Assembly: GCF_001278805.1 (NCBI RefSeq)
Contig: NZ_CP012602.1
Span: 4,679,501-4,743,500, forward strand
From: Bacillus sp. FJAT-18017
GTDB taxonomy: Bacteria; Bacillota; Bacilli; Bacillales; Cytobacillaceae
Length of the DNA stretch: 64,000 nt
Reading direction: 5' to 3'
The notes below the pieces were generated by a model. The model searched no databases. It saw only the letters and a program-made list of their open reading frames with translations, and had not been told where the DNA came from. Below, piece by piece: positions 8,770 through 10,224 of this stretch (the stretch's first letter is position 1; each line of letters starts with the position of its first letter). Both the position numbers and the translations under genes were made by a program.

Positions 8770-8840
8770 ACATGGGAGCTAGACGGAGACACACCTGATA
8801 GTATCCACAGTAGCAAAATTTAATTCTATCCTTACTAATA

Positions 8841-8870
8841 AAATGCCCGCCAGCAAAATGGCGGGCATTT
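8841..8870 (+). terminator. Terminator of pepF
   Basis: AAATGCCCGCC pairs with GGCGGGCATTT (11 bp, 8-base loop) and is followed by CTTTT on the plus strand. It lies 70 bp after the pepF stop codon. Confidence 0.88.
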
Positions 8871-8963
8871 CTTTTAGCAAAATTTGTTGCTCATACTTCT
8901 ATGCAATATACTAAAGTTACCATCATAAGCTTCTACTAATCCTGTTGAAAGGAGTTGCTTCCC

Positions 8964-8990
8964 ATGAAATTAGCAAGGCCGCCTTGTTAA
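8964..8990 (+). CDS. Possible 8-residue leader peptide upstream of MFS exporter
   Basis: A tiny frame encoding MKLARPPC begins at ATG 8964 and stops at TAA 8988-8990. It has a textbook AAAGGAG (8948-8954) 9 bp upstream. Its codons contain a CAAGG/CCTTG self-complementary element. It ends about 20 nt before a hairpin that can mask the exporter's Shine-Dalgarno. The Arg-Pro-Pro-Cys end is the kind of sequence on which ribosomes pause. By analogy with erm and cat leaders it may couple ribosome stalling to exporter translation. Expression is not proven. Confidence 0.5.
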   Translation: MKLARPPC

Positions 8991-9009
8991 CCTGATTGCC
9001 CACGTCCCC

Positions 9010-9048
9010 CTCCTTGTTTGTAAGGTTTGAACCTTACAAATGAAAGGA
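9010..9048 (+). promoter_or_regulatory. Hairpin that can sequester the MFS exporter ribosome binding site
   Basis: An 11-bp perfect inverted repeat (TTTGTAAGGTT / AACCTTACAAA, 2-nt centre, 9017-9040) is extended at its base by CTCCTT (9010-9015) pairing with AAGGAG (9043-9048), the exporter's Shine-Dalgarno. No U-tract follows, so it is not a terminator. The 24-bp palindrome could instead be a repressor operator. Confidence 0.55.
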
Positions 9049-9057
9049 GAAAAGGAC

Positions 9058-10224
9058 ATGAATACTTTCGTTAATATCAGGCTTCTTTATGCCTATAGTT
9101 TTTTTCATAGCCTCATCCCCGCGTATGTCATAGAAAGGCTGTTTTGGGAAGACCGCGGGATGACGGTGCTCATGGTTATTTACACTGAAATCATCTATGC
9201 TGCCACCATTGTTGTACTCGAGGTCCCAACAGGAATACTGGCAGATAAATGGAGCAGAAAAAATCTTATTTTAGTAAGCGCTGCGCTTGGTTCCATGGAG
9301 TTTTTGATTTTACTATTTTCAACGGAATTTTGGCATTTTGCGGCTGTGGTTTTTCTTGCCGGAGTATCGAAGTCGGCATTCAGCGGCGCAGCCAACGCCC
9401 TATTGTACGACTCTTTGAAAGCTAGCGGGCTTGAGCACCGCTTTGAAAAGGATCTCGGCTACCTTGATGCCGTTGGTTTTTTTGCCGCTATCCTTGCGGC
9501 GTTATCCGGTAGCCTCCTTGCAACTAAATTCGGATTCGAATTTAATTACTGGCTTTCGTATGCAGCAAGTTCCTTATGTATCATTTTAGCTTTTGGCTTA
9601 ACCGAACCCGTTCTTTTCAAACTGAGAGAAACGAATCACGAGCCGCCTTTGAAAGAATACCTAACTGGTTCAATCAACTTTTTCAAGGCAAAGCCTGAAG
9701 TCTGCGTTGTCCTTCTTTCCGGGATGGCCACAGGCGCCGCAATCAATTATATTTACGAATTTTGGCAGCTTTATCTTGACCGGTTGACGATACCGGTTAT
9801 GTATTTCGGTGTATTCTCTGCGGGAATCATGGTGCTTTCCCTGCCTGGAAGCCTTCTGGCCCATTGGCTAATTGGGAAATTCAGTCATGCCAAGCTTTTA
9901 ACAGCCGTACTGGTTATTTTAACATGTGGTTTTTCGTACTTGGCAACTATAAAGGGATATACGGGACTGGCAGTCGTCTATCTTATCTGTCTAGCCTCCG
10001 GAATGGTCAACCCAATTGTGACAGGCTTTTTGCATCATCGGATTGATACAGATATGAGAGCGACCATTGATTCATTTCAGTCACTTTCCCTAAATGCATT
10101 CCAAATTATAACCGGAATCGGCTTTGGCTTTTTTGCTGGCCATTTTGATATTTTCGGCGGGTATGGATTCATTGCAATCCTTTGTGCTATTAGCCTGAGC
10201 ATCTTTATTCGATTTATCAAATGA
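9058..10224 (+). CDS. MFS transporter (probable drug exporter)
   Basis: Integral membrane protein of 388 residues with about 12 hydrophobic helices. The loop 2-3 signature of the major facilitator superfamily is clear (EVPTGILADKWSRK). The ATG at 9058 is chosen because AAGGAG lies 9 bp upstream; an in-frame ATG at 9040 has no site and would fall in the hairpin. It is monocistronic, with a terminator just past the stop. The substrate cannot be read from sequence. The upstream leader peptide and SD-masking hairpin resemble ribosome-targeting antibiotic attenuators, which suggests, without proving, export of a translation inhibitor. Confidence 0.85.
   Translation: MNTFVNIRLLYAYSFFHSLIPAYVIERLFWEDRGMTVLMVIYTEIIYAATIVVLEVPTGILADKWSRKNLILVSAALGSMEFLILLFSTEFWHFAAVVFLAGVSKSAFSGAANALLYDSLKASGLEHRFEKDLGYLDAVGFFAAILAALSGSLLATKFGFEFNYWLSYAASSLCIILAFGLTEPVLFKLRETNHEPPLKEYLTGSINFFKAKPEVCVVLLSGMATGAAINYIYEFWQLYLDRLTIPVMYFGVFSAGIMVLSLPGSLLAHWLIGKFSHAKLLTAVLVILTCGFSYLATIKGYTGLAVVYLICLASGMVNPIVTGFLHHRIDTDMRATIDSFQSLSLNAFQIITGIGFGFFAGHFDIFGGYGFIAILCAISLSIFIRFIK

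Follow-up and report, generated by a model that had tools for sequence, protein, structure and literature searches.

A conserved leader before a Bacillota exporter gene, a candidate translation attenuator gated by stop-codon readthrough

The window, that is the whole stretch of 64,000 nucleotides analysed here (the host genome is a single contig of 5.27 Mb), carries an MFS transporter gene preceded by a very short reading frame and a hairpin, and it raises the question of how such a leader could switch on the gene behind it. An earlier note on this DNA proposed a translation attenuator in which, as before erm and cat genes, a ribosome stalled on an 8-codon leader peptide unmasks the Shine-Dalgarno (SD) sequence of the exporter. 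The class named there, a conserved leader with an SD-masking hairpin before an exporter, was broadly right, while the mechanism, stalling on the leader, is probably wrong. The feature that had been missed is that the leader frame runs past its TAA into a second motif, Arg-Pro-Pro-Pro. The explanation that we favour, and think probable, is a translation attenuator gated by stop-codon readthrough and not by stalling on the leader.

The leader is flanked by a 604-aa ORF on one side and by the transporter gene on the other (Table 1). Its peptide MKLARPPC, described previously together with its own SD, is indeed present and is conserved in relatives. Past the TAA, the frame reads CCT GAT TGC CCA CGT CCC CCT CCT TGT TTG TAA (PDCP-RPPP-CL-stop). 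In the hairpin, CTCCTT (9010–9015) stands opposite the AAGGAG of the exporter, and an 11-bp inverted repeat, TTTGTAAGGTT/AACCTTACAAA, occupies 9017–9027/9030–9040; both elements are as the earlier note had them. For the region 8930–9075 the folding energy is −39.8 kcal/mol; its shuffles average −25.9 (z −4.5), and none of 200 reached the same stability. No intrinsic terminator-like site was found in 8780–9100 of the window, which argues against a transcription attenuator, and no curated Rfam covariance model matched anywhere in the window at its gathering score.

Table 1. Features of the leader and exporter locus, in window coordinates
Feature	Position	Strand	Basis
Possible promoter, TTGTTG - 17 nt - TATACT, weak first hexamer	8884..8912	+	By eye; not reported by promoter scan
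Leader SD, AAAGGAG	8948..8954	+	Sequence; AGGAG-like SD in consensus of 62 aligned leaders
Leader ORF, MKLARPPC-TAA (ATG AAA TTA GCA AGG CCG CCT TGT TAA)	8964..8990	+	Sequence and relatives
Leader stop TAA, following motif 1 (Arg-Pro-Pro-Cys)	8988-8990	+	Sequence and relatives
In-frame spacer past the stop, 4 codons (PDCP)	8991..9002	+	Frame kept in relatives
Motif 2, CGT CCC CCT CCT (Arg-Pro-Pro-Pro), same frame as leader; CCNCC is the anti-SD	9003..9014	+	
End of read-through frame (Cys-Leu-TAA), within the 5' arm; relatives do not conserve it	9015..9023	+	
SD-masking hairpin, 9010-9026 paired with 9031-9041 and 9044-9049	9010..9049	+	Folding
Exporter SD, AAGGAG, paired inside the hairpin	9044..9049	+	Sequence, folding
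MFS transporter, 388 aa from ATG 9058	9058..10224	+	Pfam MFS_1 7.6e-23

The transporter itself matches NCBIfam models only far under their naming cutoffs, and is 94% identical to the exporter of Bacillus sp. EB01. The window's genome yielded a single copy of transporter and leader, and R1, a sequence-only model built from 62 leaders, likewise has one match there. Within the 64 kb of the window the double motif is present a single time, and each of 62 distinct loci has it once, at the leader.

To place the leader in the context of its relatives, exporters were gathered from overlapping sets of 61, 398, 394, 193, 36 and 3 genomes. With repeated copies of the same genome removed, and L032 counted as the same locus as L011, there are 70 distinct exporter loci: 62 with a leader recognised by pattern, 2 with one recognised by eye (L024, L026), and 6 in which none was recognised (L007, from a Clostridiaceae MAG, and L018, L019, L023, L025 and L073, from genomes of the same phylum). 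The pattern avoids circularity by choosing leaders by motif 1 alone, as Arg-[Ala/Pro/Ser]-Pro, up to two codons and any stop; CGNNNNCCNCC was then sought in any frame within 75 nt.

Eleven of 12 named relatives have the leader, and all 11 continue in frame past the stop to Arg-x-Pro-Pro. In the larger collection, selected on motif 1 only, 62/62 distinct loci have Arg-x-Pro-Pro in frame past the stop. Matches to CGNNNNCCNCC lie in frame 0 in 63 of 64 cases over 65 rows, the single out-of-frame match being an overlapping one, and in 60 of 61 over the 62 distinct loci; L036 and L046 have no match because their Arg is AGA, and their motif 2 is still in frame 0. The spacer is a multiple of three in all 62 loci while ranging from 9 to 36 nt (21 nt in 35 loci, 15 in 12, 18 in 7, 12 in 3 and 27 in 2, with 30, 36 and 9 also found). 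Indels indifferent to frame would keep it in about one in three cases. On a tree of 55 transporter rows, which omits L005 and L017 (short translations) and L074–L081 (upstream DNA only) and retains the duplicates L027 and L031, spacer length changed at least 12 times, against a mean of 23.4 and a minimum of 19 changes in 200 label shuffles. The 62 loci are kin, so they are not independent samples, and the 12 changes on the tree are the more careful figure.

The spacer is also kept open. Stop codons make up 3 of 402 spacer codons in the leader frame versus 61 of 680 in the other two (35/340 and 26/340). Three of the 62 loci (L042, L043, L055) have a second in-frame stop two codons past the leader stop, with motif 2 still in frame; they may be decaying, or may better fit an inducer that blocks termination generally. 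In-frame ATG, GTG or TTG occurs in the spacer of none of the 62 loci, with 13 and 8 loci having one in the other frames; motif 2 thus lacks its own start codon.

Differences between 23 close pairs fall at codon positions 1/2/3 in the ratio 4/2/32 in motif 2 (32 of 38 at the third position) and 63/42/62 in the spacer, where no amino-acid constraint is visible. Hence it is the peptide of motif 2 that is conserved, and of the spacer only its openness and its frame. Among 60 unique leaders, motif 2 is RAPP in 40, RPPP in 15, RGPP in 3 and RSPP in 2, and motif 1 is RPPC-stop in 52, RPPS in 4, RAPS in 2, RSPC in 1 and RSPS in 1. Two more distant relatives fit the plan by eye, L024 with MSIRSPS-stop-VATHSSA-RPPP and L026 with MYKNKGSC-stop-PYKLMSLSS-RPPP. 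Taken together, the data on frame, spacer, stop and motif 2 indicate that reading across the stop is under selection; the conserved open frame across the leader stop is what a readthrough-gated leader should have, and the simplest reason to keep it is that ribosomes sometimes read through.

These patterns also bear on the idea of a non-coding RNA element, a riboswitch or protein site that looks codon-like by chance. Motif 2 is in part under constraint at the RNA level, since its CCNCC must pair with the SD; nevertheless, differences concentrated at third positions, a frame kept in 62/62 loci, two motifs encoding related peptides and the lack of any Rfam match in the window make this reading very improbable. 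Two further routes past the stop were considered and rejected. Reinitiation at motif 2 would need the in-frame start that is absent from all 62 spacers (the spacer of L026, fitted by eye, does hold TTG ATG), and hopping to a downstream Cys would need an in-frame spacer Cys, which is present in the window, L015 and L017 and absent in L008, L010 and L013.

The hairpin was scored in 63 of 65 rows, the other two (L017 and L081, the same organism) having no recognised SD. In 60 of these 63 the SD pairs, by at least three of its five bases, with the start of the CCNCC of motif 2. The inner part of the hairpin is more stable than its shuffles (mean z −3.0), and its arm sequences differ by lineage. 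Leader peptide and SD-masking hairpin are therefore both kept in relatives, which is the conservation of small frame and stem that the earlier note had asked of orthologous exporters, and together they point to a ribosome-targeting compound as the putative inducer. The same comparison bears on whether the inverted repeat could be the operator at which a repressor of the exporter binds. Judged from the window only, the 11-bp repeat does look operator-like; we reject this reading, which is almost certainly wrong, because the arms vary among relatives while the SD pairing stays, and leader peptide and leader SD are conserved besides.

How could translation of the leader open the hairpin? In a classical stalling attenuator, a macrolide- or phenicol-type drug would stall the ribosome at Arg-Pro-Pro-Cys and re-pairing would free the SD, the second R-x-P-P serving as anti-SD RNA only. 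Much of the anatomy agrees with this: a short leader ORF with its own SD, an SD-masking hairpin, a strongly conserved motif 1, and a leader whose length and peptide conservation resemble those of erm and cat leaders. However, a stalled ribosome would have to cover or rearrange the masking arm, and the last leader codon begins 21–48 nt before CCNCC in every one of the 62 distinct loci. The front edge of a ribosome is about 15 nt ahead, and with this gap a ribosome at the leader end cannot cover the anti-SD. The re-pairing proposed in the earlier note fares no better, as its alternative CAAGG/CCTTG element within the leader is not conserved, being broken already in the 94%-identical relative L006. 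Stalling also leaves unexplained the frame 0 in 62/62 loci, the multiple-of-three and stop-poor spacers, and the third-position variation of motif 2. We consider it distinctly unlikely. A ribosome on motif 2, on the other hand, would cover the entire 5' arm of the window's hairpin (9010–9026). The distance between leader and anti-SD, combined with the open frame past the stop, thus points to gating by stop-codon readthrough.

The stop codon that such a gate would use is a strict one. The leader ends in TAA in 60 of 62 loci (TAG in one, TGA in one). In a control that takes all open runs of at least 120 codons on both strands of these loci, and so includes non-genes, 177 of 388 end in TAA. A T follows TAA in 39 of 60 leaders versus 44 of 177 control ends; in the window this base is C. 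An E. coli reporter study describes TAA as the strictest stop (PMC10959953). A strict stop suits a low-background sensor, while constant programmed readthrough would favour the opposite.

From the leader, frame coupling, strict UAA, masking hairpin and exporter linkage read in the sequences, we infer the following steps. In the uninduced state, a ribosome would translate MKLARPPC and terminate at the strict UAA upstream of the hairpin, leaving the exporter SD paired with the CCNCC of motif 2 and the exporter off. A drug that causes misreading or failed termination would let some ribosomes continue in frame through the spacer to Arg-x-Pro-Pro. Pausing on these proline codons, which are themselves the anti-SD arm, the ribosome would occupy the 5' arm of the hairpin and free the SD, so that the exporter would be translated and, presumably, export the drug. 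The Arg-Pro-Pro-Cys before the stop may add to this by slowing termination and favouring readthrough. Slow release at motif 1 is proposed by analogy only, as Pro-Pro precedes the last residue and is not itself a C-terminal proline; according to work cited in PMC7246954, C-terminal proline can stall termination, although the measurement of that paper itself gave no expression change with proline.

To assess how closely the leader is tied to this exporter family, we turned to the searches with R1. Over 394 genomes of the family that includes Paenibacillus, R1 matched in 39, of which 38 are those holding the exporter and are mostly the model's own source sequences; the informative part of this search is the one further match in the other 356 genomes, with search filters that lose weak matches. 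That match, in G660, lies before a decayed exporter remnant. Over 398 genomes of the phylum, six had matches: the window's own, G371 and G414, both before exporters, and three that scored weakly. L024 and L026 have leaders that R1 missed in this search. The matches in G137 and G349 (contig 62) showed no motif pair and were judged to be chance. Ten neighbour genes from seven loci had no family in common, so the exporter gene stands alone. Among plasmids no relatives of this MFS transporter were found at E 1e-40, and the viral contigs searched contained no relatives of it or of the AAC(6') described below. As side observations, the leader of G660 (L113) has Gly in place of the Arg of motif 1 with motif 2 still in frame, and in one Paenibacillus an RlmN-like radical SAM gene (L010, 4476–5549) lies downstream of the exporter, which was absent among the other neighbours tested.

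The phylum search also placed the same plan before a different gene. In G067 (L121), R1 gave 16.9 bits (E 0.006), which is not significant by score alone over 398 genomes, at MMLCIRYPC-stop-SEVYARA-RSPPG-stop followed by a hairpin over the SD of a 179-aa acetyltransferase. This protein resembles AAC(6')-Ii (NCBIfam 1.1e-37; 129.6 bits, under the naming cutoff of 300) and matches PDB 1n71 with E 1.1e-30. Its clostridial relatives number 473 proteins at E 1e-20. A gene 79% identical to it, on the Klebsiella plasmid NZ_AP022205.1 (L124), follows a leader of the same plan in which the spacer differs, MFYIRYPC-stop-FAIKAKA-RSPPG-stop. For each of the two upstream regions, 0 of 20,000 dinucleotide shuffles contained the double motif. 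Since both spacers are 21 nt, the pair is uninformative as to frame. Three Klebsiella plasmids carry the 151-bp leader DNA in identical form; nine Citrobacter plasmids match just its last 35 bases, and in the one of these that was read (L125) other sequence stands in place of the leader. The 47%-identical acetyltransferase L123 is without the leader, and a search for close matches did not find the plasmid AAC region in E. coli genomes. The AAC(6') link is thus supported by few examples, namely one weak R1 match (1 of 398 genomes) and plasmid relatives.

Even so, the leader plan before an AAC(6')-Ii-like gene suggests miscoding drugs as inducers, and with an acetyltransferase as the second gene family the aminoglycoside type is favoured. 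The likely inducers would be aminoglycosides or other miscoding compounds. Published work lists aminoglycosides, odilorhabdins and negamycin as readthrough inducers (PMC7544508) and reports that lariocidin, a lasso peptide from Paenibacillus, causes readthrough (PMC11451635). In the reporter study, amikacin raised readthrough most, overall, in low-basal reporters such as TAA; the effect of aminoglycosides is modest, about twofold in the case of amikacin (PMC10959953).

The same gate could be opened without miscoding drugs if release factors were trapped or depleted, or if release after Arg-Pro-Pro-Cys were blocked, by a PrAMP-like, macrolide-like or unknown compound. With motif 1 the leader has a peptide signal at its stop, as this reading would have it, and apidaecin causes pervasive bypass that is comparably efficient at each of the three stop codons, which would fit both the UAA and the two-stop loci (PMC7544508). 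Azithromycin, moreover, is described as causing more readthrough than amikacin (PMC10959953). Against it stands the second gene family with the leader, an aminoglycoside acetyltransferase, and we think a block of termination alone rather unlikely. We also know of no termination-blocking compound for these hosts.

Readthrough-gated attenuation, as we propose it, has partial precedents. The erm, cat and integron cmlA attenuators likewise have a short leader ORF with an SD, followed by a hairpin masking the resistance gene's SD (PMC8876359); they respond to a ribosome stalled on the leader, whereas here the leader end lies 21–48 nt from the masking arm and the frame runs past the stop to a second conserved motif. 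Ketolide-induced frameshifting on the ermC leader is the closest precedent seen, since there a drug-induced error likewise takes the ribosome out of the leader ORF and turns the resistance gene on (PMC10959953). That case is a frameshift, unlike the same-frame continuation over a strict UAA to an Arg-x-Pro-Pro on the anti-SD arm seen here. The aminoglycoside-inducible leader of integron aac/aad genes likewise places an aminoglycoside resistance gene under a 5' leader, proposed to be a riboswitch or attenuator; it is the attI1 site with ORF-11, and is set apart by its description alone, which in the parts available proposes no stop readthrough (PMC8876359, PMC7588185). Among the matches listed in open full-text literature, as titles and starts of abstracts, no resistance-gene leader under the control of in-frame stop readthrough appeared, and we did not find this leader class described there.

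In the autoregulation of prfB (RF2), termination failure at a stop codon is the signal, as proposed here, with the difference that prfB uses a +1 frameshift at a UGA inside the gene itself, in contrast to an in-frame UAA in a separate leader of a downstream gene. To our knowledge, drug-sensing leaders such as those of erm and cat sense a ribosome that has stalled, a signal better matched to macrolides and phenicols than to error-causing drugs. We are evenly divided on whether this is a new class of switch, whose sensor would be termination failure itself: miscoding drugs would cause readthrough of the strict UAA, pausing on the Arg-x-Pro-Pro/anti-SD codons would follow and resistance would turn on, in a design common to an exporter family of several Bacillota groups and to an AAC(6') moved onto enterobacterial plasmids. 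If true, it would explain how bacteria sense aminoglycosides and other error-inducing compounds, provide a natural biosensor for drugs impairing termination or fidelity, and predict the substrate class of an uncharacterised exporter family. The double-motif anatomy can be used as a search pattern.

One further observation concerns the last sense codon of the leader (8985–8987 in the window), which encodes Cys in 55 and Ser in 7 of the 62 loci and is TGY or AGY, never TCN. Such usage may mean that the codon or its tRNA is constrained besides the residue.
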